Below are positions 16,277 to 60,854 of a stretch of 64,000 bases of DNA, one piece after another; positions within the stretch are counted from its first letter, which is position 1; each line of letters starts with the position of its first letter. This DNA comes from Sabellastarte sp. h YS-2021 (taxonomy: Eukaryota; Annelida; Polychaeta; Sabellida; Sabellidae). Location: the NCBI GenBank assembly GCA_964017235.1, contig OZ024935.1, forward strand, positions 31,165,596 through 31,229,595, given 5' to 3'. Both the position numbers and the translations under genes were made by a program. The notes beneath the pieces are model-generated. The model searched no databases, was not told the DNA's origin, and worked only from the letters and a program-made list of their open reading frames with translations.

Positions 16277-17395
16277 ATGGGTCCTGCCCTGATACTGCAG
16301 AGAGAGGAGAAAGGTTGTTACAGTACACTCTTGGACGAACTGATCACTAGTGACATACCAGGCTACAGAAATTTTACCAGGATGGAGCCACCATTTTTTT
16401 ATTTGATTGAAGAAAGAATCACCCCACCTCAGGAAGTCAATCACCATCCAGCCACTGGAAGTTGGCTTGAAACTGGCAGTTACTTTGAGACACTAATCCA
16501 CAGGGGAAAGCTACACCTCACTGCAATACAACTAGAGGGTTGGAAGATCGACCATCTGCAAATTTATCCCCAAGGCCTGCAAAGCCATTTTGAAAGAATT
16601 TCAGCCAGAGTATCTTGTGTGCCTCACTGATCCTGAAGACTGGAAGAAAATTGAAGAAAGATTTAGGAACAGATGGAATGTCCCCCATGCAGTTGGTGCA
16701 TTAGATGGAAAACACATTGCTATCAAGAAGCCCAAGAAGTCAGCAGTGAAGATTTCAACTACAAGGGTTACTTCTCCCTGGTACTTTTGGCTTTAGTCGA
16801 TGCAGATTACGTGTTCCTGTAGGTCAACGCAGGGGCCAGTGGATCATCATCTGATGCACAGATTTTGAACCGCATCAAACTGAAAAGAAGAATTGAAAAT
16901 GGAACCTTGGGACTACCACCACCTGAACCACTTGGACCTGGGGGGCCAAATCTACACTACTTCCTGCTGGAGGACGACGCCTTTGCCCCGATGCCTTGAC
17001 TGGTCAAACCTTCCAGTAGATGCCAACTGACCAGAGAAGAAAGAATAGCCAACTACAGGATATTCAGGGCAAGAAGGATGGTTGAGAACTCATTTGGTAT
17101 ACTTGTCAAGAGATTCAGCCTGATGTTGACCAACATAGAGCAGAGGCCAAAAGTTGTGAGAGACATTGTGTTAACATGTGGGGTTCTATATAACATGTTG
17201 AGAAGCCATCAGGGGAGAGCAGACAGACCACCCACTACAGCCAATGACATACAACCACCACAGGGGGACCAGGGGGAACAGAGATATCAAGAAAACTTCA
17301 GAAATCCATTGAGGGAGGCCAAACATCAACGAGACCTACTGAAAGACTACTTCAATCATGTGAGGGCACTGGTTAGGCAGGAGGACAAAGTTTAA
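16277..17395 (+). pseudogene. Harbinger-2 transposase with lost catalytic residue
   Basis: DDE transposase in two frames. The first part (16277-16440) reads 'LILQREEKGCYSTLLDEL' and 'DIPGYRNFTRMEP'. After a frameshift, 16590-16796 reads 'WKKIEERFRNRWNVPHAV', then 'GALDGKHIAIKKPKKS' (first D). The next block has a stop where Trp is expected, and Asn in place of the second catalytic Asp ('L*VNAGASGSSSDAQIL', about 16813-16863). 'PNLHYFLLEDDAFAPMP*' follows with another stop. 'ARRMVENSFGIL' (catalytic E) begins the last open part, 17078-17395, ending 'NPLREAKHQRDLLKDYFNH'. The stops and the D to N change make it inactive. The missing start and N-terminal residues are probably upstream of 16277. 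Confidence 0.87.
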
Positions 17396-18245: not shown

Positions 18246-18518
18246 AAATTTGGTTTTGGGTGGTGGTGGTTTTACTTAGGGATTATTTTTTTAGGGAATT
18301 TTTTTTTTGTTTTGAGGTGGAAGTATATTTATATTTGTTTCACACATTCATTCACACAATTTTGTTTTGTACTGAGGGGAAGTGTAAATGTTGGATGGTG
18401 CGCTTTTTTGTTTTTGGGCATAGACATGTAGCTTGTTAATTGTTTTTGTAAGTTTTGGGTGGCCCTTAAAAGGGCCGGGTTTGGTGCGACTTGTGCAGGC
18501 TAATCCGCTGATTTGGGC

Positions 18519-24373: not shown

Positions 24374-25579
24374 TTATTTTGTGATAAGTATTAGTACTGA
24401 ACTGTTATGTTTTGGGAGGGGAATTTGAACAACTTCCAGCTTAATAATTGTTTTTGGATGATTTGGGCGGAAAAAGGGTCTATTGGGGGTACAAGACCCA
24501 CTTACTGTGGCCGTTGGAGGGTTTCCAGAGCCAATGGGGCTGGGTGTGTAGTAGCCATAACTGCTGGAACTGCTGCCTGCTGCTCCCTGGGTGGAACTAG
24601 ATGCCTGTTGAGTAGTTGTTGGCAGTATTCTGACCTTCTGTGACTCTCTGGTAATAGTTGCTGATCTCCTGGGTAGTACTTGATGTCTATGAGTGTTCTT
24701 TACTGCTTCAATGTCTCTACAAATCCTGCCCTTGAGGTCCTCAAACTCCTCTTGGGTCATCTTTTCAGCCTCTGATGCCACACAGTCAAAGAACTGCTGC
24801 CTGTCTGACTTCTGCTGCAGGAAACCTGAGATCAATGTCCTCATCTGGTCAAAGTGCTCGAGTATCTTGGAATCTGTAGAGACTGGTGTAGATGTAAGTA
24901 TTGGTTGACTCCTACTCTCTCTCAGGACACTGGACTGAAGATGTTCTGTATCAGTAGTAGATCCACAAGATTCTTCATGCCTGTTGGTGTTCGGACTGGC
25001 CTCGAACCCAGAACTTCTGTTGGCCCCCTTGTGTCTGATGTGGGTCTTAAGGAAACCCATCTGCTGGTAGATACAGGACTGTCTCTTGGTCATCTCCCTT
25101 GGGGCTTGGCCAGACTGTTGCTTGGAGAGCTGGCCATAACGAGTTCTCTGTGACTCAAACCACCTTCTGACATCAAAGGGCTGGAGCTTCAGTTCTGCAG
25201 AGATATCTGCCCAGAGAGCCTCCTTCCTCTGTCTGTCGTGGAAACGTCCATGCTCCTTGTCACACAGCTCTGGGTGCTCCTTCACAAACTCTACAATGGC
25301 CTGTTCTTGGCTGTCAGTGAATGTAGCACAAACTCTGGCTCTCTTGGCTACTGAGTGGCACTCTGATTCTTCCTCACACCTCTCATCTTCTTCACAAGTT
25401 TCCTCAGTAACTTCTAATCCTTCCCCTGTATCCTCTATCCTCTCTTCTGTACCCTCCTCTGTCCTCTCCTCTGTCCTTTCCTCTGTCCCCTCCTTCAACT
25501 CTCCACCTTCCTTCTCCCTCTCCTGTTGCCTCTCATCCATCTTCTTCTTTCCTCTCTTTCCTCCTTTCTCTTTCCTCAT
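24374..25579 (-). CDS. Harbinger-3 partner: MADF/Myb-like DNA-binding protein, intact
   Basis: A complete 401-codon ORF; ATG at 25579 is the first in frame (a GTG lies six codons upstream). N-terminus: long Glu/Arg/Lys-rich, low-complexity region (about residues 1-80). Then a MADF/Myb-SANT-like domain, about residues 85-150: 'TDSQEQAIVEFVKEHPELCD', 'RQRKEALWADISAEL', 'VRRWFESQRTRYGQL'. A linker follows, then a conserved helical block near residues 240-305 ('ILEHFDQMRTLISGFLQQ') and a Ser/Thr/Pro-rich tail. In characterised Harbingers this type of protein carries the transposase to the nucleus and binds DNA near the TIRs. Unlike all nearby transposases it has no stop or shift, so it is young or has been kept. 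The tail past 'FFRPNHPK' may be read-through of non-coding sequence. Confidence 0.85.
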   Translation of the reverse strand: MRKEKGGKRGKKKMDERQQEREKEGGELKEGTEERTEERTEEGTEERIEDTGEGLEVTEETCEEDERCEEESECHSVAKRARVCATFTDSQEQAIVEFVKEHPELCDKEHGRFHDRQRKEALWADISAELKLQPFDVRRWFESQRTRYGQLSKQQSGQAPREMTKRQSCIYQQMGFLKTHIRHKGANRSSGFEASPNTNRHEESCGSTTDTEHLQSSVLRESRSQPILTSTPVSTDSKILEHFDQMRTLISGFLQQKSDRQQFFDCVASEAEKMTQEEFEDLKGRICRDIEAVKNTHRHQVLPRRSATITRESQKVRILPTTTQQASSSTQGAAGSSSSSYGYYTPSPIGSGNPPTATVSGSCTPNRPFFRPNHPKTIIKLEVVQIPLPKHNSSVLILITK

Positions 25580-25755
25580 AACTCCAGTGAATATCACAAA
25601 AAAGTAAAAAAAATACTGAAATGTGTCTCCTAACTGTTAAATTTGCCCAAGTAAAATGTGAAATGTAAAAAAAAAAACTGAAAATCCCTAGTAGTAAGTA
25701 ACACACATCTCTCAGCAGCCAACCAGTCTAAACACAGAAAGCGTGTGTGCGGTCT

Positions 25756-28144: not shown

Positions 28145-29432
28145 CGCAGGTGCTCCAGTGGAGCTGACCTGTCGGTAACTAAGAATTTTTGGAGGGTCGG
28201 GAACAATGTTTACATAGTTGGTTAGGGTCGGTTGCAGTTTCCAGGCCTGTTGGGGAGAGTCGGACCTGACCTAGGCTCCAACCCCCTGGTAACAAGCTTG
28301 TCCTAGTCACTTCCCGTCTTGACTTATTACTTCCAGGCTTGCCTGTAACCCTTCCAAGTTTGTCCTTATCAATTCCAGGCGTGTCCTAACATGAAACCGG
28401 CTTGTCTTTTGCAACATAAGTACTGCTCATTTGCAGTCAATTTCCAGCATGTTGTGAGGTGAAAATATGACAAAAAATTATGTCAGGAAAGGCACAAACC
28501 AGTGCAAGTGATCATAATTTTTAAGTTAAGAGATAGTAAAGGTCCACATGCATGCTTTAAATAATTGAGAAACCTTAAAAAGTGGTTTATTTACATAATA
28601 ACCAGATTCTCGGCAGAGAACTTAACATTGGTACATATGTGGATCCCATCACATGACTAGAACTACAGGATTTTTTCCCTACATGTCCAGAAAAATGAGC
28701 CTCGAAATTATTTGGTATGAATGTGTAGGAAAAGTGCTCAGAGGGACGGAATTTTGAAGGGGTCCTTCCCAGAAGCTCGAAATTGAAGTATAAAAGGAAG
28801 CAACAAGCAAGATGGTTTTATTGCCGAGTGAGATATTGTTAGAAGCATATCTCTCTCTGCTTGTTTGCACAGGACATAACAATTTTATTGAAAATTTCAT
28901 ATTTTAAGTGGCATTTTTGTTCATAATCTAAAGCAGACATACATTGATTTATTTCTCATTAAATATTAAAGCAAAAAAATGAAAACTATAATTAAAATAA
29001 CAAAAAAGTAAAGTTGGGCCTTTAGGTCACGTGATGGGATTAAAATATTTACTAGTGACCTAGTTTAAGATTGGTTTATTGGACGACACTTGATCTTCCT
29101 TTTTCCCAGAAATTCATCAAAATTTGTATTAGCAATACCGACTGCACATCTGGTCGTGGGGTTCTGTATGTTTCTGCAGGCCTGTCTGTTTGTCAGTACA
29201 GCTTGTCGGGACATGCTACGGCTTGTCTGTTTAGGGCTTGTCCTGGTAGTTTCCCAACCAGTCCTGTAGAAAACATCCGACCCCAAGGCAGGTCTGCCTC
29301 TAGATACAGACAAGTCCGGATGTTTCAGGTCCTGTTGGTGAGGTGCAACCGACCCAGTATTTTCCCGCCCTTTTTGTGGATTTTTGTCCCCAACCCCCAA
29401 CTTTAGTGGTCAGCTCCAGTGGAACACCTGCA
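28145..29432. mobile_element. Non-autonomous Harbinger-like MITE
   Basis: 1.29 kb with inverted ends: GCAGGTGCTCCAGTGGAGCT at the left, and GCAGGTGTTCCACTGGAGCT as the complement of the right. TAA flanks both sides (28142-28144 and 29433-29435). No transposase is inside. Subterminal regions carry CCTGTCGGT and CAGGCTTGTCC motifs like those of Harbinger-2. A TATA-like TATAAAAGG is at 28791. It may be a deletion derivative of a Harbinger-2 relative. Confidence 0.85.
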
Positions 29433-29696
29433 TAACCTACAATACATTACAGGAAGACATGAAGAAAAACGTGTCCCATATACCTCAAGGCTTATCTGTT
29501 TCTGTAACTGATTTTTGGTGTCTTTTTTATGTATTGTCCTGTTAAGCTGCCAGGTTGCCTTCCTGGAATAAAACCATATCCATGAACAAATTCATGAAAA
29601 GTTCCCATCTTGACATAAAGCCACCAAGTCTAGTTTTACTGTATTAGGACAGGCCAGTTTCTTTTCAAGTATGGTCGGTGTTGTTTTGGGAGCTGT

Positions 29697-29966
29697 TGAA
29701 GTAAAACTGCCACTTACCCTGCTTTATAACAGGATCTAAACTATCTGCACACAGTAGTTCTGTTGATTCACTGTAAATACCTGGACTGTGCTTTATAAAA
29801 CACAGTCCAGACGTCTCTCCAGTTGAATTTGTGACAATATTTATATTTGCTTCTTGTCTTCTTGAATTCAAACCAAAGAGTGCCTACTTCCGGTACTCAC
29901 GTCTTTAAGCTGGTCCCCGATCTTCGGCGACTGCTAAACCCCGGATCTCAACCCCGGATCACCACA
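29697..29966 (-). repeat. 3' LTR (left copy)
   Basis: 270 bp, almost identical to 34157-34413 except for a 13-bp duplication (29948-29960, repeating ACCCCGGATC-type sequence) and a few substitutions. High similarity means recent insertion compared with the surrounding Harbinger-4. Confidence 0.9.
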
Positions 29967-29982
29967 TTCTCCTCTGTGGTGT
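29967..29982 (-). promoter_or_regulatory. Polypurine tract-like sequence
   Basis: On the minus strand ACCACAGAGGAGAA directly precedes the TGTGG start of the 3' LTR, the position of a plus-strand primer (PPT). Confidence 0.55.
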
Positions 29983-30415
29983 TTTTTGGTTATCCTTTAG
30001 ACGCTAAGGTTAGGCAATTATGAACTACTGTAGCCACCTCGATGGCTACTTAATAAAACATTTAAAGTTACCATAACTACTATAAGGAATTACTTTGGTT
30101 AAATATATCTAAGACTTTTTGGTTAAAACTATTTTCTACTGTTGTTGTCTGCATATTTACATGTTCAAAGTTATATTCAATAGTCCATTAAATTTACTTT
30201 TATTAAAAATACTTTTTTTTCCAAATTATTACTTTGTTACATAGACATTTTACTTTTTTTATTTATAATCTTATGAATTTAATTTTACACATTTTGCCTT
30301 TACCTTTTGGTATGTCAGCTTGACATACCCTGAGAGCATTGGGTAGCTCTCCCCACACCTGAGTGCTAAGGAGTGTCGGCGTAACGACAAACCCAGCAAC
30401 TCTCCCCCTCCCCCT
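29983..30415 (-). other. AT-rich 3' untranslated part of the LTR element
   Basis: No coding feature. T-rich runs near 30205-30260. It lies between the nuclease stop and the PPT. Confidence 0.5.
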
Positions 30416-31811
30416 TCAATGTGAGAGGTTGTAGAATCGCCTGGCGTTGTCCGAGGTGGCCTTGATGACATCTTCCACCTGCAGACCCTTCAAGTCGGCG
30501 ATTCGTTGTGCAACACACAGAATGCCAAATGGTGTGTTAAAGTCACAGATAGCATGCTCTGGTGCTGTTAGGTGTGGTGCATCTGTTTCTAACAGAATTC
30601 TATCCAATGGCAGTTTCTTGATGACATCACTGACTTCGCGATGACGTTCCGGCCTGAGGATTAAAGCAGTAAAGCCGAACATTATGCTAGGGAAACTTTG
30701 ATGCCATTTTTCCATTTCCTTCACTAGTCCATTGAAACAATGCCTGTGTATTTTACATCTTTTCAGGTCGCAGCCTCACAACTTGTTTTCAATTGTTTTT
30801 AAACACAGGTCACTTGCATCAGGAGAGTTGTTATAATCCCTACAATGGATAACCAGAACTTTTGACCACAGTTTTGACTCTACGTAAAATGAGAGAATAT
30901 CCTCTAGAAGTTTGGTTTGATATTTGATGAGGGCACTGTGGCTGGACGTACGCTCAATATCAATTTCTCCATTGCTACACATCTGGCTTCTTTCAGTATT
31001 TTGTCCTTGATGGCTCCCACACGGTGTTGATTGACATACTTCGCGTGTTTCGGATGTACGCCAAAGGCAAAACTGAGACAATGATCTCGTTTCAACATGG
31101 GTAATTTGTCCCAGGTTGGAACCTCATCACAGAACACAGCGACGGCGGCTTCCAATTGAGAGGGTATATGAGGCATAGGGCCATGTATCATGATGGGATC
31201 CAAACGATCAAGCCCTGTTTTCCTCTGCAGCCTATCCATATGGAAATGTGTGTCGACAAATGAAATTTTTTGGTGAGACCTCAGGTAAGCTAATTTATCT
31301 GCTCTGCGGTCTGCCTCCTTTTCATCATATGCAACACCAATGCTGTTTTGGTTCATCTCCCTACTTATCTCACAAGCCCGTAATAAGGCTGCTTTGAAGT
31401 CATTTTCTTTCCTTCCCCTGTACTATCACCAGTGTCTGATGGTTTTTTACTGGGTTCACTGGAAGGTTTTGATATCGGGGCGACATCACTGGCTGCAATA
31501 TCCTTTTTACTGGGACGAGTTGGTGATTTAGTGGAGCTACTTGTTGGCTTTGCTGATGATTTCGAGACGATTTCATCAGTGTCCATTGGTTCTTCACCAA
31601 CATCACTAGAAGGTCCTGCTTCTGTGGTTGATGTTGTAGCCAAACTTTTATCTATTGAAGCCAATAGAGTGTCATCATCTGGTACAACTATCACTTTTTC
31701 TGCCTCCTTAGTGTTAGAGTCCTCCTTTTGTCTCACCTTTCTACAGACTTTAGAAGTTCTGTTGGGTTCAATCCCAGGTACAGGCAGATACATAGTGGCT
31801 CGGATGACCAC
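30416..31811 (-). pseudogene. TATDN2-like TatD nuclease domain of the LTR element, frameshifted
   Basis: TatD enzymes are metal-dependent DNA nucleases. Reading 31811 to 31365: an acidic Ser/Thr/Pro-rich linker. From 31356: 'SFVDTHFHMDRL' with the HxH metal motif (about 31241-31255), then 'LSFAFGVHPKHAKYV'. A frameshift near 31000 leads to 'NGEIDIERTS' (metal Glu), 'VLVIHCRDYNNSPDASDL' (His), a TGA at 30776-30778, 'KIHRHCFNGLVKEMEKW' (His), 'SIMFGFTALILRPERH', and 'PLDRILLETDAPHLTAPEHA' (Asp) with the C-terminal 'RRFYNLSH'. 'KIHRHCFxG' and 'GFTA' are closer to animal TATDN2 than to bacterial TatD. All ligand motifs remain, but not in one frame. It was probably captured from a host gene; the start of the nuclease product cannot be set. 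Confidence 0.85.
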
Positions 31812-31814
31812 TTA

Positions 31815-32055
31815 AAATGGCGGTCCTCTGTCATTGGGTCCTATCCCCAGTGGCAGGTTAAAGAACCTCAAGGACGTTGATAAATGGTCATCCTTGAGCC
31901 TCTATCTTCCAGTTAGGGGAATGTGAGTTACTTGTGAGTTGGAGCTGTACCTGTACAGTCGGATTGGTTAAATAGCGCTTTGAGTCCTGTAGTATATGGA
32001 GATATTGCGCTGAGTATAAATACATAATAATAATAATAATAATAATATAATAATA
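31815..32055 (+). mobile_element. LINE/SINE-type 3' tail inserted in the LTR element
   Basis: Plus-strand sequence with AGGTTAAAGAACCTCAAGG, AAATAGCGCTTTGAGTCC and ATTGCGCTGAGTATAAATAC, ending in (AAT)n at 32027-32055. This is the usual form of a short CR1/L2-related 3' tail. It interrupts the minus-strand reading between 'DVVEEPE' and the nuclease linker, so it came after the LTR element. Exact left boundary uncertain. Confidence 0.7.
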
Positions 32056-32850
32056 ATTCTCTGGCTCTTCAACTACATCTGTTGTTGTTGTCTCGGATGT
32101 TTGTTCAGTCTGTATACTGACTTGTAGAGTTGGCCTTGCAACTTCAAAATGTTCCTCACCAATGACATTGATGACGCAAGCGGCAATCCTCCAGTGGAGT
32201 AAGGACTCAATGACATTAGGTGGATCGATGTTTGGTGTCTTTCCAACTGATTCAGGGTGTCTCCACTGATGGAAATCCTGCATCATTTTGCGATCCTCCT
32301 CAGATTCATGAATGGTCATTCCCCTGGTATCCGGGTATATGTGATCCTTCAGAACCTTGTTCATTAGCTCTCCATTGTCATGGCACTTAAGTTGATCCCT
32401 CGCGACTTTAAGAAATTGTTCTAATGAGGCCATTCTTTGTGCTAGTTCCATGTCTGTGCCTGCAAATCCTGCTGGCAAATGCGCTTGTATGACATGGCGT
32501 CTCATATGTGATTGTTCTTCTCTGCACGATTTAATAGGACATTGCGGACGACGCTTTCTTTTCGGTGCAGGCTTTGGTGTTTGAGACGGATTTGGCCTCT
32601 TTTGAACATCCTGTTCCTGAACATTCGATCTGCTCGAGTCCTTTTCATGTTTGTCAGACAGCTTACTCGTCGGCTTCGAGTACTGTTGATGTTTTGGGGC
32701 CTGTTTCCATTTACTAGACCCTTTCTTTGATCTGACCGTCTGCCAGGCATATTGACTTTTCCTATAACGTTCCTGGCGCCTGGGAGGTGATACTGCCCTG
32801 GTTTGAGCAGGCCTGTTTGTGCGTCTTAATTCGGCTTCCTCCTTGGGCAA
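32056..32850 (-). pseudogene. C2H2 finger-containing middle region of the LTR element product
   Basis: Open minus-strand frame reading from 32850 (no ATG; likely joined to the upstream frame by a shift) to the inserted tail. First comes a Lys/Arg/Gln/Ser-rich basic stretch of about 90 residues. Then 'RPQCPIKSCREEQSHMRRHV' followed by 'IQAHLP' (about 32470-32545), a C2H2-like zinc finger. A helical region with 'LEQFLKVARDQLKC' and 'IHESEEDRKMMQDFHQWRHP' follows, then 'LHWRIAACVINVIGEEHF'. I know no family for the helical part. It sits between the gag-like knuckle and the TatD domain, apparently in one ancestral ORF. Confidence 0.65.
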
Positions 32851-33077
32851 TCGCGTGAAAAATGTCCTTTTTCCCCATACTCATAACAAGCCATTTGACT
32901 AATACTGGGTTGCTGTGTTCTGGTTGGTGAACGATTCAGTCCACGAACTAATTCACTCAAAGTCTTCTCCAGTCGGTCTATTTTATTCTCCATAGATTGC
33001 TGGTCAGCAAACTGTACCTTGGGCTTGATATCGGTACTTCTGGGTTGAGTTAACTGTCTAAATTTGGCGCCTTCCAC
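32826..33077 (-). pseudogene. Gag-like segment with CCHC knuckle, one Cys lost
   Basis: Minus-strand frame with 'MENKIDRLEKTLSELVRGLN', a short coiled coil, followed by 'MACYEYGEKGHFSRDCPRRK'. The last part is a retroviral-type zinc knuckle CX2CX4HX4C in which the second Cys is Tyr. A stop follows at 32826-32828, and the downstream frame overlaps it (32850). No capsid fold can be recognised upstream, so the gag is short or decayed. Nucleic-acid binding and RNA packaging are inferred from the knuckle. Confidence 0.65.
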
Positions 33078-34139
33078 TTGTCAACCGTCACCACATGCAA
33101 CTTGACTATTCAATCACAATTTGTTATTTTAATCAAAAATTGATGCACGAATCAGCTGATTTCAATTTTTCATGCAAATCAATTCCAAAATTCACTCAGC
33201 AATAAGCACTGATTGATCTTACTTATATATTAGTATGTACTGAATTCACAGTACGATTTTATGCAATATGCAAAATATTCAATAATAATAATTTTCAATA
33301 TAGTTTCAATACAAAATCTATACTGTTCAAAATAAATTCAATATCGACAGCTCAGAAATTACACAATATTAATGTAATTGAACTATGACCAATCTGTCGT
33401 CACAGTTACTATTTATTTTATTATTTTTTTCAAGAAAATACTGTCGACAAATTACTGTTCTAATTACTAACAGTAACAGTATCAATAAATATTCAAATAA
33501 ACTAGAAATGTCAGTCGACAAACTAGCTGCCAGAAATTAATTCAAAATATGAACCAAATTACTGATTCACTTTAATTCAATAATTCACACACACGGTATG
33601 AATAAAAAATTAATTCACACAGGAGCTATATGTGTGACAGTGAGAAATGTCAAAATCGACACTAATTCTATTTTATTTCCAAAGAACCTGAACTACCAAC
33701 AACAGTAATTCAGAATAAATTCAATTACAAATAGTTCACACTATATCAGCATGAATATGAATTACAATAACAACAGTAAGTATTGCAATATCACTCACTG
33801 TAAATATATATATATTTTTTAATTATTTTCCAAAAAATTCACACCAAAGTATGAATAAAATAAACAGTAAGTATGAATTTTAATAATAACTCACTGTATT
33901 TTCAACTTCAGTATCAAATATCACACATATAATATTTATCTGCTACTGACAGAGTTGATGAACAGAGTTTTACCACTATTTAAAACTACCAAATCACGGT
34001 AATTTAATGTGTGAATTACCGCGAAATGTCGCTAAACAAGTCAGTTAAATATATTTCTAACTACTATCAACTCTGTTACATAATATTTTTAAAGTGACAA
34101 TATGGCTACCAGTGTAAATAGGTCACAAATCCGTGCCAA
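33078..34139 (-). other. AT-rich leader of the LTR element
   Basis: About 1 kb with no ORF, rich in AATTCA/TGAATT and ACAGTAA motifs. It lies between the 5' LTR and the gag-like segment, where a long packaging leader would be expected. Confidence 0.5.
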
Positions 34140-34156
34140 TTTATTTCTGGTACCAG
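34140..34156 (-). promoter_or_regulatory. tRNA primer-binding-site-like sequence
   Basis: On the minus strand, one or two bases after the ...ACTTCA end of the 5' LTR comes TGGTACCAGAAAT. Beginning with TGG (complement of tRNA CCA) at this place is typical; the sequence resembles initiator-Met sites (TGGTANCAGA), with differences. Confidence 0.55.
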
Positions 34157-34413
34157 TGAAGTAAAACTGCCACTTACCCTGCTTTATAACAGGATCTAAA
34201 CTATCTGCACACAGTAGTTCTGTTGATTCACTGTAAATACCTGGACTGTGCTTTATAAAACACAGTCCAGATGTCTCTCCAGTTGAATTTGTGACAATAT
34301 TTATATTTGCTTCTTGTCTTCTCGAATTCAAACCAAAGAGTGCCTACTTCCGGTACTCACGTCTTTAAGCTGGTCCCCGATCTTCGGTGACTGCTAAACC
34401 CCGGATCACCACA
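34157..34413 (-). repeat. 5' LTR (right copy)
   Basis: 257 bp; on the minus strand starts TGTGGTGATCCGGGGTTTAG and ends TTTTACTTCA. Contains TATAAAGC (minus; near 34180-34190), a possible promoter element. CTGT follows on the plus strand at 34414-34417. Confidence 0.9.
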
Positions 34414-34647
34414 CTGTCATGGAGTGAGGCCAGGGTACTTGAGCAGGACATGCCAGCAATTGTTTAAAGATAAGACAGTTTGTGCACAGGGTTGGTCTGG
34501 AAGGGTCAAGGACAAGACTGTTTTATTGTGGGTAGAGCCAGGGTCAGGATGGAAAGACGTGGAGAGTCGGTGAAACCGACCCTTAAAGTAGAGTCGAGAA
34601 ACTATAATCAAACCCAAAACAAACCAAACTGTACCTAGAATTGTGGA

Positions 34648-34671
34648 GAGTCAGCCCTAGCGGAGCACCCA
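34648..34671 (-). repeat. Unpaired Harbinger-like right terminal repeat
   Basis: GTCAGCCCTAGCGGAGCACC then CA, followed by TAA. It is of the same type as the MITE TIRs (GGAGCTGACC), but its left partner is not adjacent. It is best explained as the right end of Harbinger-4. Confidence 0.6.
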
Positions 34672-34674
34672 TAA

Positions 34675-35584
34675 GTTACAATTAATGAATTTGTTCATTT
34701 CACAAAATGGGCACGTCAGTTGCCGATTGGATTGGGGTTAACATGTACATAACTTAAATAAATATACATAAATATTAAACCATACTGACCTAGAAAATCC
34801 CTTGACTATCCCCTGTGTCAATTTTTCTTAGCTCAGTGCTCTGCCTTTCCTCTCGCGTGGAAGATATTGCGCCTGTAAAACAGTAGTTGAAATCAGGTAA
34901 TTTATCCAAATGTTTCAGAAACATTGAACACATAGAATAACTATTCAAAAACGAATACCAGTGACTTAAACACTTGAAAGTCCTGAAAATTATCTATTAC
35001 AATCCCTTCATCGACCGAGACAACAAACAGACGCCACGTCAGCCAACATGATCAATTTATATATATATGCATGTTTGAAGGTGTTTTAACTCTATAAAGG
35101 AACTGAGTCATTGATTTGGTATTTCAAAATTTCCCCATCTATAAATACCCTCTTTCATATTTTTTTATCCAAATTGTGGTACTTGTGGTGTTATTGGCAA
35201 CAAAATAAGTGCAAGGAATCAGTCATAGTGAGCGTAATTCAAGAAGCATGGCGATGAAGTATGGTTAAGAAGTATTAATGTCTTTTTTTGTTTTGCTTTT
35301 TTTGTTCGAGTTTATTTCATGAAACCCATTATTACCCACCACGTGTGTTAAATTTTACAGTATAGTGTTTCACTTCCTCTCAGGAAACTGCCTTAAAACA
35401 ATTTTTAAACATAAACTGGATACAAAGCCTGAATTTCAACGTTTATTAATTGGATTTTAAGCCATGAACCACTATGCTCAAACAATAAACATCTTACCTT
35501 TCAAGTTATCTTGCCCAGATTTAACAACATCAGTAAATGATCGAGGTATCTTGATAGTGCTGTTACTATGTGGGTGATGTTTCT
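34675..35584. other. Gene-free sequence after the nest
   Basis: AT-rich; no gene, RNA or repeat recognised apart from ordinary homopolymer runs. Confidence 0.5.
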
Positions 35585-49312: not shown

Positions 49313-50269
49313 ATGCCAAAGACATTTGATTGTAACGCCTGTGGGGACAGGCATCAGAGACCAATTAATAGTAAATGTACAAGAATTAGCGACAGTGAGC
49401 CAGAGGATGGCATTAGTGTTACCAGTGCGGGATAATCTGACATTAACTTGCAAATACTGAACAAGTTAAAAAGTTTAAGTGGTAGGATGTTAGCCGTGGA
49501 ACAAAGAGTTGACAAGGTGGAGAAGCCAGGCAACCAGTCAAATTCAGTGGCACCAGAAACCACAGCAGTTGCGTCGAGCACAGCGTCAAGTACAGCGTCA
49601 GACACTGTCATCCCTTCCATAGACTTCCTTAAAGCGTCGGACACCATTCAGGCCAGAGTGGACGACAGGATCAAGGAACTTCAAGCCATGCATCCACAAG
49701 GCAAGTTCAAATCACAAACGGGTGGTTCTGATACCTATTGGTGTAAAAGGGAGGTACCTTGGCCTCAAAATCATATTTTAAGTGGTACTAGCAAGTCCAG
49801 GGTATCACATGATAACTTTTCCATGGCCCAGTGGGTTTCTGGTTTTTGTGCTATTATAAAAGAGGCGAGTAATGTTCAAACGAAAAATAACAAGTTGAGT
49901 TATGTAGCAGATCTTATGGAGGACTGTCACGACTTTGGGTGGCAGTCACCCAAGGAAGCTCATGCTGTAGTACTTTGCCACATGGAGGAAAACAAAGTTA
50001 ATTGGGAGGAAACCAATAAACTTGACCGTCTTAGACGAGTCCATGCTCAAAGAAATCAAAATTCAAACATGTCATTGGGTCGAAAATTCAAATCCAAAGA
50101 TAAGGGCATTCCATGCTGTTTTTATCAAAAGGGCACATGTGGGCAGAAAACTGAACATGAAAATGGGGGACAGTTATATCTCCACATTTGTGAACATTGT
50201 TTTGCTAAAGGCAAGTCTCATCCCCACCCAGGCAAGGATTGTAGGCAAAAAGTACCAAAAAACGAGTAG
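49313..50269 (+). pseudogene. Gag-like zinc-finger protein, one in-frame stop
   Basis: ATG at 49313 opens 'MPKTFDCNACGDRHQRP' with a CX2CX3H-type start, also found in copy 2 ('NCWKCSEKHYPPTGRNC'). A single TAA at 49433-49435 interrupts; the rest is open to 50269. It has a coiled-coil-like stretch ('LKSLSGRMLAVEQRVDKVEK'), a conserved core ('VPWPQNHILSGTSKSRVSHD', 'MAQWVSGFCAII', 'EAHAVVLCHMEENKVNWEET', 'LDRLRRVHAQRN'), then Cys/His clusters 'CCFYQKGTCGQKTEH' and 'HICEHCFAKGKSH'. These match copy 2 in order. The role is inferred as RNA binding and particle formation. Confidence 0.78.
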
Positions 50270-50873
50270 GGCACTGCAGAATTGCAGTGCCAGAAAGTAC
50301 CAGTAAAAAATCTTTCAGTACTCGAGTTATTGTAAATAGTAATAAGTATTTTGTACAGAGTGAGAATTGGAGGCAGGATTGGTGGCTTGCCAATAATGTA
50401 TTGTATTCTGATGTCATTAAGAACAGAGGTAAACTTGTGGAAAATCATGGAAATGTTATCACTAAACGTGAAGCTAATGGGTAAAAACATCACAGTTTAT
50501 TGTGGTAAAAACATCACCAGAACCCGTCAAAAATGTCAATAGCAAACAAAAATATCAATATTGCTCATGACAACATGTTTAGGGACACCAAAAGTCATTA
50601 TTCCCGTGTCAAAGTTAGTCAAAAACCCCAAAAAACAATGGCTCATTACACAGACATGAAGAATGGTCAAAGGTGCGAATCTGACAATAATAGCCATTCA
50701 ATAAACAATGGTATTGTTCAGAGGTGCGACTCTGCAAACAATAGTCAAAGTCGCACCTCTAATCAAACTGGCAAAGCAAAAGTCAGGTTAATTACACAAC
50801 AAGTGTTAAAAATAGATTTTGGCCTTTATGTACTCAGGACAAGGTTAAGCCTAGTTCACATGGTCACGAACAC
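50270..50873 (+). other. Interval between gag-like and RT regions, copy 1
   Basis: Low-complexity open stretches rich in Asn/Ser/Lys with two stops; an internal repeat ('QRCESDNNSHS' and 'QRCDSANNSQS', about 50660-50760). It may be the spacer or N-terminus of the pol protein. Confidence 0.45.
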
Positions 50874-52862
50874 ATGGTGAGTGTCCGTGACAATGACAAA
50901 AATACAAATAAAAATGTGTCAGAACTTGTCAATCACAACAATAAGTGTCAACTCCCACTAGTAAAAGATACTAGGGCAAGTCAAAACAAAGTTGACAAAC
51001 AAGGTACAGTTTCAGCCCCTCAAAAGAAAGCTTCAGACATAGTGAACCAAAATGATCAAGTTACTGACAATGTTTCGGATCCGGACAAATATGCATTGGA
51101 CTTAAGATTTCGTCCTCGTCATAGGCTTAGAATTCAAGAAGCCAGAAATTGTCGGACTTTCAAGCTTTGGGATGAGCAGATGTCGGATAAATTCGGATAT
51201 ATCCCTCTCCAGGATCAGACTATTCCTAGTGAAGATAATAGAAAAGCAAGCATGACTGATGCTCTAAAAATGCATGAAATTATCAGTAAATCGAACACTT
51301 ATAATTTCGTAGATTGTCAAATACAGGTCCCTTCAGAATTAAATGCTGATGTCTGGGAGCAGTACCTGGAATATCTTATAAGATATGGATTTCCTTTAGA
51401 TTTCAACAAAAAAAAACATGTCTGTCTCATAAATTAGGTAATCATGGTTCAGGGAATAAGTATCCCACAGATATTGAAGCATATTTAGCAGAAGAAATGA
51501 AACATAATACCATTTTAGGCCCATTTCACACTCCTCCCATACCAGACCTTCATGTATGTATCCCCATTTATGACTCATGAAAAGCCAGGAGCCCCTCATC
51601 GCAGGGTCATTATAGACCTCAGCTTTCCTGCTGGCGAGTCTGTCAATGCTGGAGTTGACTCTGAACAGTATCTGGGTTCGAAATTCTTGCTTACCTTGCC
51701 CACCATAGATACAATCACTAATAAACTAGTTAAATTGGGTAAGGGAGTCTTACTTTATAAAATTGACATCTCAAGAGCCTTCAGACATGTTAAGATAGAC
51801 CCTGCTGATTATAAATATTTAGGTCTACACTTCCAAGACTACTTCCTTGATAGCTGCCTGCCATTCGGCTTTCGGCACTGTTCGGCCATCTTCCAACGCC
51901 TCAGTGACGCCGTCAGATATATCATGAGCACCAAAGGTCACAATGTGACCAATTATATTGATGATATCATCGGATATGCAGTTAAATCCAAAGCTCAGGC
52001 CTCTTTTGATACATTGTATACCCTCCTTCAGGACCTAGGTTTCAAAATTAGTACAAACAAGTTGGTAACACCCACCACGAAGGCCACCTGCTTAGGCGTC
52101 GAACTAGATACCGAAAACTCAACAATTGCTGTGCCTCAGGAAAAATTACATGATATTAGGCAAGAGTGTCAACAATGGCTAAGTAAAACTACTTGTACCA
52201 AGCGTCAACTTCAGTCATTGCTAGGAAAACTACTTTATGTCACAAAATGCGTCAGGGCCTCAAGACCCTTCCTAAACAGAATGCTAGATACCCTAAGAGC
52301 AGCCCATAAGCAGGATACTATTGCCATAGATTGTGACCTTAACTGGTTTACTAGGTTCTTACCACAATTTAATGGTGTAGCCTTCTTTAGTCGTAACCCC
52401 ATACATACACATGTCGAATTAGATGCTTCACTCCAAGGCTTAGGAGCCATGTGTGGTCAGGAAATTTATGCAATTGCACTCCCCAATGGCTACCAAAACT
52501 ATAACATTGTACACCTGGAGATGGTGAATATTCTAGTGGCAGTTCGAACATGGGCCCACCAATGGCAGGGTCGAAAGGTGGTGATTCACTGTGACAATCA
52601 GGCAGTTGTATCAGTACTGAGCTCCGGCCACACTAGGGATATGACCTTGGCAGCTATAGCTCGCAACATAAACATGATTACTGCATTTAAAGACATAGAA
52701 CTTCTTACAGTTCATATTGAAGGTAAATTGAATGTGGTAGCTGATACTTTGTCCAGATTGTCTATAAATCCAGGTCTAATTGAAAAAATTCCCGAATTGG
52801 TCCCTGGTCATATATGGATCACTCCTGAAGCCAATGCATTGATGTTGGACTGGTCTATTTAA
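50874..52862 (+). pseudogene. Reverse transcriptase-RNase H of copy 1, two compensating shifts
   Basis: N-terminal lead ('FRPRHRLRIQEARNCRTFKL', 'VWEQYLEYLIRYGFPLDFNK') to 51437. A run of nine A (51407-51415) marks a shift; 'LGNHGSGNKYPTDIEAYLAE' continues in another frame until about 51550, then the first frame resumes. RT: 'PHRRVIIDLSFPAGESVNAG', 'VLLYKIDISRAFRHVKID' (catalytic D), 'LPFGFRHCSAIFQRLSDAVR', 'NYIDDIIGYA' (YIDD box, about 51953-51985). RNase H: 'HVELDASLQGLGA' (D), 'IVHLEMVNILVA' (E), 'VIHCDNQAVVSVL' (D) and 'NVVADTLSRL' (D). The four acidic residues are all there. It would be active but for the two shifts. Confidence 0.86.
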
Positions 52863-52882
52863 TTGCAGGTTCCAATCCTCAT

Positions 52883-53847
52883 TTGACACTATTATACCGC
52901 AAGGCAGCTCGTAGAATGCATCAGGCTTTTGCAGATTCTACTAGAAGGTCGTATACAGTTATGTTCAGAACTTTTGTGGCTTTCTTAGCCTTCATCAACG
53001 TCCATCCACACCTTATTTCCTCCACCCACATTCTGGCCTTTTTAGAATTTCTGGTGTTCAACAAAGTTTCTCATTCACAGATTTCCAATTACCTGACTGC
53101 TATAAAAGCAAATTATTCTATGTTGGCCTTAGACACATCTCCCTTCTTTGACCAGAGAATCAAATACTTTACCAAGGCTGTCGCAAGGTGTGCCCCCCTT
53201 ACAGTTAAACTAAAAGCCATTGTCGAACCCCCTCTTCTCATCCAAATTATTCAACAGTGTGATTATCTGTACATGGGTTTCGTCTTTAAGGCTGCAATCC
53301 TTCTGGCTTACTTTGCATTTCTCAGGATGTCCAATTTGGTACCTCATACCATCACGTCTTATGACCCCCTTAAGCAGTTAGCCAGGGCTGATATATTTTT
53401 GCACACCCTGGGGCCCAGGTATTGTTAAGATGGTCGAAGACCAAGCAAATGAATAATTCTGTTAGGTTGATAAAAATTCCTGCCCTTGGGGCTTCCCCTC
53501 TCTGCCCTGTGTCAGCTCTCCAGGAATTACTGGTTAACACTCCTGATCAACCAAATAACCCCCTCTTTCAAGTAAAATGCTTTGGAAAATGGGTTCCTCT
53601 TACAGATACTAGATTGAGAAAAACTTTTTCCACAATTTTAAATAAGCTTCACCTCAGCCAATCAAATATTATTTTTCACTCACTTCGACGTTCAGGTGCC
53701 ACCCTGGCCTTTAACTCCAGTGTTCCCCTCCAAAACATTCAGAGTCATGGCACCTGGACGTCGGAGTGCATCTGGTCTTATATCACTCAAGACCAGCATG
53801 CCTCTGAGAAAGTGGCCTTAGCTTTCCAACAACTACTCCAACCCTAG
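52883..53847 (+). pseudogene. Tyrosine recombinase of copy 1, single frameshift
   Basis: Integrates the circular cDNA by strand exchange. First open part 52883-53428: N-terminal SAM-like domain ('ADSTRRSYTVMFRTFVAFLA', 'HILAFLEFLVFNKVSHSQIS') and 'AYFAFLRMSNLVPHT' with the first catalytic Arg. A one-base loss near 53424 shifts into 53422-53847: 'LLRWSKTKQM', 'IFHSLRRSGATLAF' (HxxR), 'QSHGTWTSECIWSYI' (His, Trp and the nucleophile Tyr). All of R-HxxR-H/W-Y are present. The end at 'LLQP' is shared in style with copy 2. Only the frameshift prevents expression. Confidence 0.88.
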
Positions 53848-56070: not shown

Positions 56071-56943
56071 TCATACATTATTAAAGCATTTCCTGAACTT
56101 ATAGGAGACCTCACGGCCAGCAGTAGCCTGTGGACGAATGTACCGCCAGACACAATCAGACGCCCAGGTGCCATGCTCCTTAATTTCTTTCACAGGAGTA
56201 TCTATTTCATATGCCATTGAGACACCTGAGCACCTGAAAGCGTGGAAAGTATAAAAATTTGATGGTAATTGCATTGCCTGGTTAATCTTTGCTAGAACCT
56301 TCCTGATCCTCGAATCAGTCAATACCTGCCAACCCGCTGCAGCCCAAATTTGGAATAATGGAGATTAGTTCCCTGGGTTGTATAAGTCCATAATGTTTTG
56401 CAAAGCCCTGTAAGGGCAGATAGTTGAGGCCCCCAATTTGGGGAGGGAAATTAACCTGTATTCGTTTTTGTACTGGATAGTCTTTGACCATTTAAGCAAA
56501 AGCTGAACCTCTTTATCTCTGAAAAATATATCTCCCCCAGTGAAATGTCTGGTACAATCGAATTCCCCAATTGCATATGAGGCAATGTTTGACAACCTGA
56601 AAAATCCGAAGAAGGCGGTCAAAAATACTGCTTTATACACCATCGATTTAAAAAAATTTTGGGTAGCCGCAATGATCGCCTTGAGAGTGTTGAGATCAAT
56701 AATATTTCTTTTAGGCAATGCTATAGACCTGGTCAATTATGCTGATCTAACAAAATACTTGATTTTGGGGTGGTCCCATGTCCCATATGGGAGATCATAC
56801 AACACATACATGGCCCTAATTGCTGATATGTGATTACTGATCATATGAGCCGATACTCCATTATCTACTAAGAATTCTAAGTATGACAAAGCTTCTGACA
56901 CTGACAAGAGATTGAACTTTATTTTTGCACATAAAAGCCACAA
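56071..56943 (-). pseudogene. Tyrosine recombinase of copy 2, two stops in one frame
   Basis: One frame from 56943 to 56071 with stops only at about 56737 and 56367. 'ALSYLEFLVDNGVSAHMISN' and 'YDLPYGTWDHPKIKYFVRS' belong to the N-terminal domain. 'AFFGFFRLSNIAS' holds the first Arg, then 'LLLKWSKTIQYKNEYRLISL', 'FYTFHAFRCSGVSMAYE' (HxxR) and 'IKEHGTWASDCVWRYI' (His, Trp, Tyr). The catalytic set is complete. The part before 56943 is missing or in another frame. Two stops make it non-functional. Confidence 0.87.
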
Positions 56944-57201
56944 AAGATCGAAACAACATGCGATAACATTTAACAGTTCTTGGTCTGAAGGCCAACTTGG
57001 TCCTCTGTGCAGCCTTTCGTGAATATTTTGTCAAAGCCCCATTATCAGGAAATACAAAGCATAGTATCTGTGGCCATTGCTACTTTACAACCTTCCTAAT
57101 TTACAATGTGTGATCTATTTCTAACATGTCTACAGATACAGATAACCACACAGGGTTATTAACAATGCTTGTAACTGAGTAACATTTGCAATACTGTACT
57201 G

Positions 57202-59225
57202 TCATCTTGATAACAAATCAGCTACTACATTATTTTTCCCTAACACATGAACATATTGCAGATCAATGTCTGACAAGGCAGCTATGTACCACACATTACG
57301 TACACAAGCCCCCAGATAAGGGTCATGTGCTTTGCCTGCATTCAGGTCTTTTACGACAGCGTCATTGTCACATTTGACTAATACGCGCAAAAACTAATTT
57401 GCAAACTAATACTAATTTGCAAAAAGTCGCAAAGCCAACACGATATTAATCATTTTAAGATGTACAATATCTAGGTTTCTGAAACCTCTTGACAAAGTGA
57501 GGTGGTAACCAAAATTTTCCCACCTGCCCCCCAGACCCGTCAAGCAGGCATCAAGTTCCAAAATCGATTTTGAAACCTGATGTGCATACATTGAAATGCC
57601 ATTGTACTGAGGCAAGAACTGGTCAAACCAGCCTAAGTCTCTATGAAAGTCATCTGACAACATAATTTTTGCTGGATTGCTTACGTTATGTAACGTTTCC
57701 AACATTCTGTTGAGAAAGCACCTTGCTGGCTTGACACATTTGTGAACATAGAGTAATATGCCCAGTAACGACTGGAGTTGGCGTTTTGTGCAAAATTTTT
57801 TGCCTTTCCATTCTTTAACCATAATGTTTATATCTTGTAATTTTTCAGGTGGGATAGATACTGTGCCTTCGACTGTGTCTATGAGACTGCTTGCGTTGTT
57901 GGAGTCACTAACATTTTCTTACTGACAGTTATTCCCAATTGCGTCATGACGTCAAGTAATGCGTCATATGAGCGTCACGCAACATCCGACGTGCCGTACC
58001 CCAGAAAATCATCTATATAATTTATGAGGTTTGCGTCACATTGACGCATAACGTAACGCACAGCATCGCTTGTGCGCTGCATGAATTGGCTGCCATGACG
58101 ACTTCCAAAGGGAATTCTTGTGTTTATATACGTTCCATCCCAATTTAAACCCAACAAATCATAGTCCCTGGGGTCAACATTGAGATGCCTGAACGCCCGA
58201 CTGACGTCGACCTTGAAAATATGTGCCCCTTTGCCAATTTATATCAATTCTTTGGTCAAATCATCAATACTTGGAAAATACAACTTAAAATCCGCCCCCC
58301 AAGTAGCCATCTTTCTCTACCCCTGCATTCACAGATTCCCCCCTAGGCCAGCTAAGGTCCAAAATGACCCTTCTTGTATCTGAATTTGGCTTGTGCCTAG
58401 TCATGAATGGTAAATAATGCAAATTTTGTATGGGAGCTTCTTTGAACGGGCCTAGAATTGCCCAAATAATTTTTCTTCCTGAATATATTTTTCAACATCT
58501 TGTGGGAATTCAAGGGATGATTTATGATTTGCTTTGTCATGCTTTAATGGACACATTCTATTAAAACCCAAGGGGAAGCCAAATTCCAGTCATTGCAGTA
58601 GTTGCTGATCCCAGTAAACCCTGAGCAAAGCCTTTCAAGCCCCAATATTCATCTGTGAGCTGACAGGGATTCTGGCTCCTAAATAATTGGGCAAATTGTG
58701 TTTTTTGACTTCTTCATGCAATTTTATAGGGTCCAGAAACCTGATGTCTGATGTGGTTTCGGTAGTCGGGAGAATCGGATCCATGAGTGGTATAAATCCA
58801 AAATTCGCTTCAGACTGAACCCTCCACTGGTCAAAAGATTTACATTCGAGAGGGGCCACAAGCTTTTTATTGTCACTAAAAATGATAGAATTGATGAATT
58901 TGTCACCTTCTGTGTTTCTAATGTCAAACAACAATGTCTGGCCATCCAATAAACCTGAATTTGACTTATCATCGTCTGACCTACTATTGTTTTCATTAGC
59001 ACTGTCGACAACCCCACCACTCAGTACCTTTTCCCTTTGTAAAGCATCTGATTGTGTGTGGTGGACCTTTATTAGCTTGCCATTGCCTTGGTCATTTACA
59101 ATCGATTTGTGTTCACCCCGTGTCATCGACTCGCCTTCTATTGTGAGCTCACCGGATCGTGGTTTACTAATTGGTATTGGGTTTTGTTTACTCTCTCTGG
59201 AAGCCCAGAAAACGCCCCCTTGCAA
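57202..59225 (-). pseudogene. Reverse transcriptase-RNase H of copy 2, many shifts
   Basis: Lead region 59225-58635 ('FDQWRVQSEANFGFIPLMDP', 'DPIKLHEEVKKHNLPNYLGA') parallels copy 1. RT pieces in several frames: 'RVILDLSWPRGESVNAG' (about 58370-58320), 'FKVDVSRAFRHLNVDPRDYD' (about 58220-58160), 'TRIPFGSRHGSQFMQRTSDA' and 'NLINYIDDFLGYG' (58157-57975; YIDD box). 'CTKRQLQSLLGILLYVHKCV' starts the link to RNase H (57822-57412), with 'LELDACLTGLGGR' (D) and 'DIVHLKMINIVLALR', where the expected catalytic Glu is Lys. 'VKCDNDAVVKDL' and 'NNVVADLLSR' (57390-57202) give the last two Asp residues. Dead copy. Confidence 0.83.
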
Positions 59226-59684
59226 TATTTCTGCTTATCTGTTAGTTCTCTTGTTTTGCCCTTAACCACACAAGCATATGACCTGGCCACGACGTTTTGT
59301 GCATTAGCCTTGAAAATTTTAATGCTATGACTCAAGGGACGAACCAAAAGACTTTCAATTTGTGCAGGGGTTTGTTTTTTGTTATAGAAAACCCTACCTG
59401 AAACCGCTACCTTTTGTTCATGACCTTGACCCGATATGACCCCAGCCTTGTTAAAATTTCAGCTGTCACCATTGTATATGTTTGTGCCACTCACTTGGGT
59501 GCGTGTTTGTTTGATAGGTCGAGTTTGACCTTGGCCCGATATGACCTCTGCCTTGCCATTATCTGCATCACTGACTATCACATTTTTAGACATGTTATGC
59601 ATTTTTGAATTATACATTACATCAACAATATTTTCCTGAACATACATGCTGCCCCCCCCCCCCTTTTTATGGAAGGACAGCCAC
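59226..59684 (-). other. Interval between gag-like and RT regions, copy 2
   Basis: Open fragments rich in Asn/Lys/Ser without a known domain. Twelve C in a row (plus strand, 59652-59663) lie near the end of the gag-like region and may be a replication-slippage site. Confidence 0.45.
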
Positions 59685-60854
59685 TCATTCGTTTTTTTGA
59701 TTATGACGTTTGCTAAAAAGGCAATCTTTCTCTGCATGTCCTAACAATCTTCCTTGCCCTAAACAAAAAGAACAGATATGCTTGTGAGTTTTGCCATTCA
59801 CCTCATGATCTTTTGCAAAAGAACACGTCCCACTCTGAAATTGTTTGCAGTACCATGGTTTTGAATTTTTATCACTTTTTACCCATGTTCTGGTTGTATT
59901 AACATGTTTCTGGGCATGTGCCCTACGAATCCTATCGATTCTTGCTGTGTCTTCCCAATTTAGAGAACCCCTTTCAAATTCGCACAGCAATACAGCATGA
60001 GCTGCCTTGGCCCCCTGCCACGAAAAATAAGTTGCGTCTTCAAAAAGCTCCCCCATGTATTGAATCATATTCTCCCTAATTTTTTATCAGGTTCATCTAG
60101 TATATTTTTGCAAAATCCCTGAACCCACTGAGACATGCTTAATTGATCATACGACAATCTAGCCCTGGTTGTCCCTCCTAAGATTGCTTCATTTGGCCAA
60201 GCCACCTTATTTTTTACTAATACATCAATATTCCCCCCACGTTTGGACTTAATTTTTGTCCCAGTACCTGTAGCTTCACTTTGACGCTCAAGTTCCCTGA
60301 TTCTACTGTCTATTTCTTGTTGAATTTTGTCAGATTTTCTCATACAACTTAAACTTTGTATAGACTCGTCTTCTGACGACTCACTATCAGACCACCTATT
60401 TTTAACAGTTCTATGCGAAGTGCTACTTAACTTCTTGCCCTTAGATCCTGAGTGCTGGCTCTTTATGTGCTGTGACCCTGTTTCAATCCTGCCTTCCACG
60501 ACTTCCAGGTGCTGGCTGACTTGCTGTAGCTGCTCTAGGATCTGTTTTTGGATGTCATCTGGCCCTTCTGGAGTACTGCTTGCTTGTAATGTCTTGGAGG
60601 TACTGGAAATCACGTTAGAGTCCCTCTCCACTTCAGGCCCAGCTACCCTCAACTGCACTACTACTCATTCTAGTACTGTGCAACACTTCAGTCCTTTCAC
60701 AGTTACGACCCGTGGGTGGGTAATGTTTTTCTGAACATTTCCAACAATTTTTCCTCTGTTTCCCATATTTATACTTATAATTGTCACTGTTCAAATAATA
60801 CTGAAAATACACAAGAAGCACACCTCTCTCAGTGCTCTTAAATGACGGTTTCAA
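59685..60854 (-). pseudogene. Gag-like zinc-finger protein of copy 2, shifted
   Basis: Three overlapping minus-strand frames. 60854-60633 ends with 'KNCWKCSEKHYPPTGRNC', the N-terminal CX2CX3HX6C motif. 60658-60065 has a coiled-coil-like stretch ('IQKQILEQLQQVSQHLEVVE') and the conserved 'KVAWPNEAILGGTTRARLSY' and 'MSQWVQGFCKNIL'. 60068-59685 has 'AKAAHAVLLCEFERGSLNWE', 'RIDRIRRAHAQKH', 'PWYCKQFQSGTCSFAKDHEV' and 'HICSFCLGQGRLLGHAEKDC'. All conserved blocks of copy 1 are present in order. At least two frameshifts separate the parts. Confidence 0.78.

Follow-up and report, generated by a model that had tools for sequence, protein, structure and literature searches.

A Ty3-type retrotransposon lineage in the annelid Sabellastarte with a TatD-family gene downstream of pol, found through a deleted copy

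A 64,000-nucleotide stretch of the genome of the sabellid polychaete Sabellastarte sp. h YS-2021 (assembly GCA_964017235.1, contig OZ024935.1, positions 31,165,596 to 31,229,595 of the forward strand; hereafter the window) contains a 4.7 kb long terminal repeat (LTR) element on the minus strand, at 29697–34413, in which an earlier note had seen a TatD-type nuclease domain and no polymerase. The element very probably stems from a Ty3-type lineage whose members carry gag, pol and then a third open reading frame (ORF3) that combines a C2H2 finger and a PPN..HWR module with a TatD domain at its C-terminus, the window holding a deleted copy. TatD is an old, selected part of this lineage and not a recent capture.

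The source genome, a 1.786 Gb assembly in 647 contigs, was searched with the window LTR and gave at least 42 matches (best 40 of 160 candidates scored), so the LTR is a real repeat, far beyond chance. Fifteen LTR pairs could be inferred from the spacing of the matches, thirteen at 9.0–12.7 kb and two, in the window and on C19, at about 4.5 kb; flanks were read for seven of them. In the C8 and C18:29.2 copies (target duplications GTAC and ATAC) the two LTRs are identical over 270/270 bases, which points to recent insertion. They agree at 269/270 bases in C1:79.3 (ATAG), at 98.2% in C2:8.4 (GTAC) and at 99.2% over 250 bp in the short C19 copy (4.57 kb apart, ATAT), and C18:30.2 is flanked by ATAT. 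Full-length copies of this family, termed family A, share the primer site TGGTACCAGAAGT and the purine tract AGAGGAGAA, and all three genomic loci scanned hold transfer RNA (tRNA) genes, tRNA-Leu(taa), with the matching 3' end. The tRNA-Leu(UAA) 3' end itself occurs at 95 places, mostly in tandem arrays at C1:174.83, C3:173.4–173.5 and C6:126.8 Mb, and the reversed pattern at none. The earlier note had suspected a related intact family, and full-length copies with the same LTR indeed encode gag, pol and TatD; LTR and TatD recur at many loci with differing target sites, TatD is present in the copies elsewhere, and the direct repeats are more than a local duplication.

Four family-A and five family-B elements were retrieved from the assembly in two pieces. 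The order in family A is gag, protease/reverse transcriptase (RT)/RNase H/integrase, and an ORF3 ending in TatD. The gag of the C8 copy matches Retrotrans_gag (E 6.7e-7), CCHC (1.5e-6) and, under the cut-off, HHH_3 (7.2e-4), and the pol of C18:29.2 contains a protease (3.7e-7), RT (9.2e-29), RNase H, rve (1.4e-14) and Integrase_p58_C (2.4e-8). ORF3 opens 30 nucleotides past the last pol codon and measures 978 amino acids (aa) from stop to stop, or 960 aa counted from the CAG|ATG described below; its TatD domain is complete (253/253 profile positions, E 3e-37). A query from the middle of ORF3 found at least 94 matches in the genome, six of them within 978-aa open frames (best 80 of 2327 candidates scored). 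The order recurs in family B (TatD E 1.6e-36) and, according to tblastn, in families C, D, E and G. A TatD reading frame downstream of pol is the gene order shared by all six families. Of the five family-B elements, one (C2:37.2) showed an LTR pair, with 98.6% identity over 345 bp; the family-C example has an ORF3 split by a further insertion, and in family D the integrase core or most of pol is missing from L052 and L059, L060 retaining RT to integrase. An 831-aa TatD frame is open in both L052 and L059 despite the loss of pol, these copies having been picked by TatD and hence being biased. Family A combines paired TG..CA LTRs and a target duplication with a tRNA primer site, purine tract, gag CCHC knuckle and the pol order given above; the lineage is assigned to the Ty3 type from the LTRs, primer site, target duplication, gag CCHC and pol domain order. 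At L021:1936–5289 there is an unusually long gag-type protein of 1118 aa; its capsid part is preceded by coiled-coil-type matches and, at the N-terminus, by an HhH-like match under the cut-off.

The finger, the PPN..HWR module and the C-terminal TatD domain are common to the ORF3s of all six families. A long basic N-terminus is found in every family except G, and C and G lack the clusters of basic residues that precede the finger in the other four families (A, B, D and E). None of the six proteins has a clear transmembrane stretch (highest 19-residue hydropathy 1.43), and with hydropathy no higher than this and TatD reported by Pfam, ORF3 is not identified as an envelope protein. The metal-ligand positions (HxH, the glutamate of GE, two further histidines and the final aspartate) are invariant in 10/10 aligned proteins. 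ORF3 is a TatD-family protein with a full domain and the metal-binding residues, and is predicted to be a nuclease.

The TatD catalytic domain is under strong purifying selection. The ratio of nonsynonymous to synonymous substitution rates (dN/dS) was computed from 16 family-A and 5 family-B loci, a locus being kept if an open frame contained both motifs and its letters were not identical to another's; the pairs are mutually dependent. For TatD the median is 0.087 in family A (range 0.042–0.271; 39 pairs, 10 copies) and 0.111 in family B (0.088–0.144; 5 pairs, 4 copies), and for the family-A C2H2–HWR part it is 0.050 (0.012–0.491; 49 pairs, 11 copies). The N-terminal part of ORF3 gave 0.32 in a run that held one element twice (L020 = L026).

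Where ORF3 starts, families A, B, C and E have an ATG immediately preceded by a pyrimidine tract plus CAG. In A one other ATG of the frame lies ahead of it; in B, C and E it is the first. A rule set after inspection of these sites passes 20 of the 1317 ATGs in the same pieces, the four ORF3 starts included. Such acceptor-like sites in four of six families suggest that ORF3 may be expressed from a spliced mRNA, in the manner of env.

The origin of the gene was approached with a TatD tree of 26 rows, the B. subtilis row not included. A branch with support 82/83 separates the six LTR-element TatDs from TATDN2-like proteins of vertebrates (five) and shrimp (one) and from two bacterial proteins; they do not group with animal TATDN2 as orthologues would. 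A crustacean TATDN2-like query returned matches of 30–38% and no clearly closer cellular gene in the source genome (best 52 of 671 scored). The host's own TATDN2, proposed earlier as the donor, is not borne out by these matches or by the tree. The LTR side also takes in eight unnamed proteins, including P0016, P0017, P0044, P0047 and P0059 from short contigs; P0016, P0017, P0044 and P0047 share a C2H2-like/HWR-like/TatD make-up, and P0047 is a long branch. Viral contigs contained no relative of P0016, P0017 or P0047, and profile A1 found there one 28% TatD match, L056; phage records had no match to the window TatD DNA or to family-G pol; for plasmids, 54 records were obtained, and the six among the matches listed were all bacterial TatD hydrolases. 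Two other unnamed proteins, P0048 and P0049, have TatD joined to a Ulp1-type protease or a CXXC finger. Overall, a single old acquisition of TatD by the lineage is likely.

Several observations weigh against parts of this picture. The lineage and its ORF3 are described here from genomic sequence. The fetched stretches of the other four family-B copies showed no LTR pair, and neither did the pieces from C, D, E and G, perhaps as they do not span the element. In P0013, a family-A database protein (cluster of 42), asparagine replaces the first histidine of HxH. The acceptor-like site of family D lies 8 nucleotides ahead of the ATG and G lacks one, the CAG|ATG example of family C comes from the copy with the split ORF3, and for the splice donor there are candidates only. 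The support of 82/83 for the LTR TatD branch is moderate, and G is a long branch. Integrase and TatD distances, compared with a family-D copy that has an integrase core, correlate at r 0.92, with 66/720 permutations as high, and at -0.03 once family G is left out; as the correlation comes only through G, a single acquisition followed by co-descent is not proved.

A working model for the role of ORF3 can be outlined. Reverse transcription would be primed by tRNA-Leu(UAA), and the integrase would insert the product, duplicating 4 bp of the target. ORF3, probably translated from a spliced message like retroviral env, would enter the nucleus, and there or in the particle its predicted metal-dependent nuclease would trim RNA or RNA–DNA hybrids arising from the element's own reverse transcription, integration or transcription, in parallel to what cellular TATDN2 does on R-loops. 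This last step is suggested because PMC12709183 credits human TATDN2 with RNA 3' exonuclease and endonuclease activity and with the resolution of R-loops; taken by itself, hybrid processing is a possibility argued from analogy, which we would not back at even chances. We also propose, tentatively and short of an even chance, the wider statement that in this lineage a TatD nuclease, made by splicing, nuclear and targeted by its C2H2 finger, occupies the env slot and is needed in the life cycle of the element for hybrid or complementary DNA (cDNA) processing, that this would be the first TatD to serve as a standing gene of a retroelement, and that it goes back to one old acquisition and extends beyond the source species, as the make-up of P0016, P0017, P0044 and P0047 would suggest.

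Two other functions would leave the gene order as it is. ORF3 might repair or trim the cDNA of the element as an apurinic/apyrimidinic (AP) endonuclease or 3' exonuclease, comparable to a retroviral dUTPase, instead of resolving hybrids. TATDN1, TATDN3 and E. coli TatD are credited with AP-endonuclease and 3' exonuclease activity in the relevant parts of PMC10085689, and the HxH motif groups ORF3 into group II (TATDN2/3), of which TATDN2 itself is described as acting on RNA in the same sections of PMC12709183 cited above; we regard this role as unlikely, if still worth keeping in view. ORF3 might also counter host control of the element; germ-line precursors of small RNAs, or other intermediates of silencing, are conceivable targets of its cutting. 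The germ-cell expression of tatdn2 in teleosts and mammals (reported in part of PMC12709183) and the faster evolution of ORF3 outside its catalytic and C2H2–HWR parts, seen in the N-terminal ratio with its one element counted twice, are in keeping with it; there is no sign of a target and the catalytic domain is strongly constrained, and this role appears improbable.

The copy in the window is best understood against the full-length ones. Its LTRs end in TG...CA, measure 270 and 257 bp and are identical at 248 of 251 aligned bases in a gap-free comparison, and the direct repeats 29697–29952/34157–34412 are the sole repeat family of at least 40 nucleotides within 29000–35200. The tRNA that pairs with its primer site is the tRNA-Leu(UAA) of the source genome itself. 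Pfam reports TatD_DNase at 30416–30775(-) (E 9.5e-21), the N-terminal part of that domain at 30904–31422(-) (E 0.1) and zf-CCHC within 32826–33080(-) (E 1.1e-3, slightly under the curated cut-off). All of the LTR structure described in the earlier note (direct repeats, their ends, CTGT, primer site, purine tract and minus-strand orientation) was confirmed at the locus, and so were the CCHC knuckle, C2H2 finger and TatD domain between the repeats, by Pfam profiles (CCHC, TatD) and the located finger. The ORF3 gene is disrupted by a stop, frameshifts and an insertion resembling a short interspersed element (SINE). Alignment to pieces of the C8 copy, which has 200 N at the position of deletion 2, revealed two deletions that together took most of gag and all of pol.

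The element is a defunct member of a Ty3-type lineage with two deletions; pol was lost in this copy, and TatD was not captured by it. It lacks a polymerase because of the two deletions, of about 3.0 and 4.3 kb, in that copy, and the full pol order of protease–RT–RNase H–integrase that accompanies a gag CCHC in the lineage is absent from it; the reported lack of a polymerase holds for this copy and fails as a trait of the family. The gag knuckle is now joined to the middle of ORF3 and pol is gone, and the copy thus resembles a TatD capture. The proposal that a polymerase-less, non-autonomous LTR element had recently captured a host TATDN2 transcript and was mobilised in trans could draw on this copy, which holds only LTRs, knuckle and TatD, and on the second short one on C19. 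The full-length gag–pol copies, however, have TatD at the same place, the deletion 2 junction is spanned by the window alone (1/40; best 40 of 104 candidate matches scored), and the C19 copy is built differently and keeps the end of pol. A capture is on these grounds very improbable and was rejected for the family. With that junction in a single copy, a non-autonomous family of the kind called terminal-repeat retrotransposons in miniature (TRIM) or large retrotransposon derivatives (LARD), in which several copies share one deleted form, is not seen either.

How regularly TatD accompanies pol was counted from the integrase end of one family, used as a query with the best 126 of 4432 candidate places scored, and from TatD places given by two TatD searches and 13 places of the ORF3-middle search. 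For 99/126 integrase ends a same-strand TatD or ORF3 match follows downstream at no more than 6 kb; 2 have one upstream and 0 on the opposite strand. A further TatD search (best 137 of 786 candidates scored) adds C20:11.99, C11:32.68 and C7:36.14 Mb, bringing the count to 102/126, and of the 24 ends that remain, the three fetched all carry an ORF3 with TatD sequence in broken frames. The two TatD searches united give at least 270 distinct TatD places in the source genome, the LTR context having been checked for part of them. Matches to PF22938 (best 150 of 2045 candidates), set against part of the TatD places, were in no case within 12 kb of a TatD place, a distance result that hints weakly at other Ty3 elements without TatD. 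Tandem TatD arrays exist at C11:99.80–99.83, C2:3.52–3.54 and C19:30.98–31.06 Mb, with spacings of about 5.4, 3.8 and 26 kb. Clusters such as the one on C11 might be expected if TatD were a host gene repeatedly hit or flanked by LTR insertions, an idea so improbable, given the fixed order and strand in that count and the family-A TatD lying between LTRs with matching target duplications, that it was rejected.

Table 1. Features of the window element and its flanks (window positions)
Feature	Position	Strand	Remark
Target-site duplication CTGT, left	29693..29696	.	
3' LTR, 270 bp	29697..29966	-	
Polypurine tract AGAGGAGAA	29967..29975	-	Identical tract next to the 3' LTRs of C8 and C18:29.2
TatD nuclease domain	30416..31422	-	Interrupted by a single in-frame stop and by a frameshift; motifs HxH, IHCR, HRHCF and ETD readable
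Ser/Thr/Pro-rich ORF3 linker	31365..31811	-	Open frame enters the insertion from 31759 on
SINE-like insertion in ORF3, TAA-rich tail	31759..32056	+	Not in four other copies compared (L022, L024, L027, L028)
Middle of ORF3 with C2H2 finger and PPN..HWR motif	32057..32843	-	
C2H2 finger CPIKSC...HMRRHVIQAH of ORF3	32479..32541	-	
Deletion 2 junction, 7 bp common to both sides	32837..32843	-	About 4.3 kb gone: gag end, all of pol, ORF3 start
gag CCHC zinc knuckle	32844..32888	-	
Deletion 1 junction	33075..33076	-	About 3.0 kb of leader and gag gone
Untranslated leader	33076..34156	-	About 90–94% identity to the full-length copies compared
Primer-binding site TGGTACCAGAAAT	34143..34155	-	Pairs with the tRNA-Leu(UAA) 3' end plus CCA at 12/13 positions
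5' LTR, 257 bp	34157..34413	-	
Target-site duplication CTGT, right	34414..34417	.	

Elsewhere in the window, a DIRS-like element at 49436–53847(+) contains RT (E 1.5e-11), RNase H and a phage-integrase-like domain (E 1.7e-7), and a second one, with similar frames as judged by eye, is found at 56365–60664(-). PIF/Harbinger-like remains occur at 17000–17395(+) and 24374–25636(-), with DDE_Tnp_4 (E 6.5e-7) and a MADF/Myb-like protein (E 1.5e-9). A match to the histone 3' untranslated region stem-loop at 18436–18481(-), at 37.5 bits above the Rfam gathering score, lies within a transposon-rich stretch.

With this lineage the accessory genes of LTR retroelements gain a new class of enzyme, in a family some of whose copies moved recently, and the action of TatD/TATDN2 nucleases on the nucleic acids of retroelements becomes directly approachable. 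A further suggestion is that animal genes annotated as “TATDN2” in many copies may belong to transposons, as could apply to the many TatD places counted here, of which part were checked for LTRs. In the giant squid Hox cluster, TATDN2 is listed among non-Hox genes, some of them transposon-like, in a section of PMC6962438. No description of TatD in an LTR element was found in the titles and abstract openings of open-licence PMC literature, a scope that excludes Repbase, Dfam and most subscription papers. Ty3/Gypsy elements with extra genes are treated in passages of PMC2774666, which name the Tat clade and one fungal chromovirus clade and note that the betaretrovirus dUTPase resembles that of fungal chromoviruses; TatD is absent from those passages.

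With Ty3/Gypsy-type elements the lineage shares LTRs, a tRNA primer site, a CCHC gag, the protease–RT–RNase H–integrase order and a short target duplication, and it differs in having a third reading frame with a TatD nuclease. Retroviruses and errantiviruses with env likewise place a third reading frame between pol and the 3' LTR, and the acceptor-like start in most of the families fits their pattern, whereas the ORF3 product is a predicted nuclease with no clear transmembrane stretch and not an envelope. Vertebrate TATDN2 resembles ORF3 in an HxH-group TatD at the C-terminus that follows a long, poorly conserved N-terminal region, with 30–33% identity to the named fish and reptile proteins among the matches listed, and is set apart by its position across the tree branch; in an alignment without fish rows, the shrimp TATDN2-like protein has neither C2H2 nor PPN..HWR at the corresponding columns. 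Some retroviruses carry a captured cellular gene, and the gag part fused to a nuclease gene in the window copy mimics such a transduced gene, but the fusion arose by deletion within an element that had TatD beforehand.

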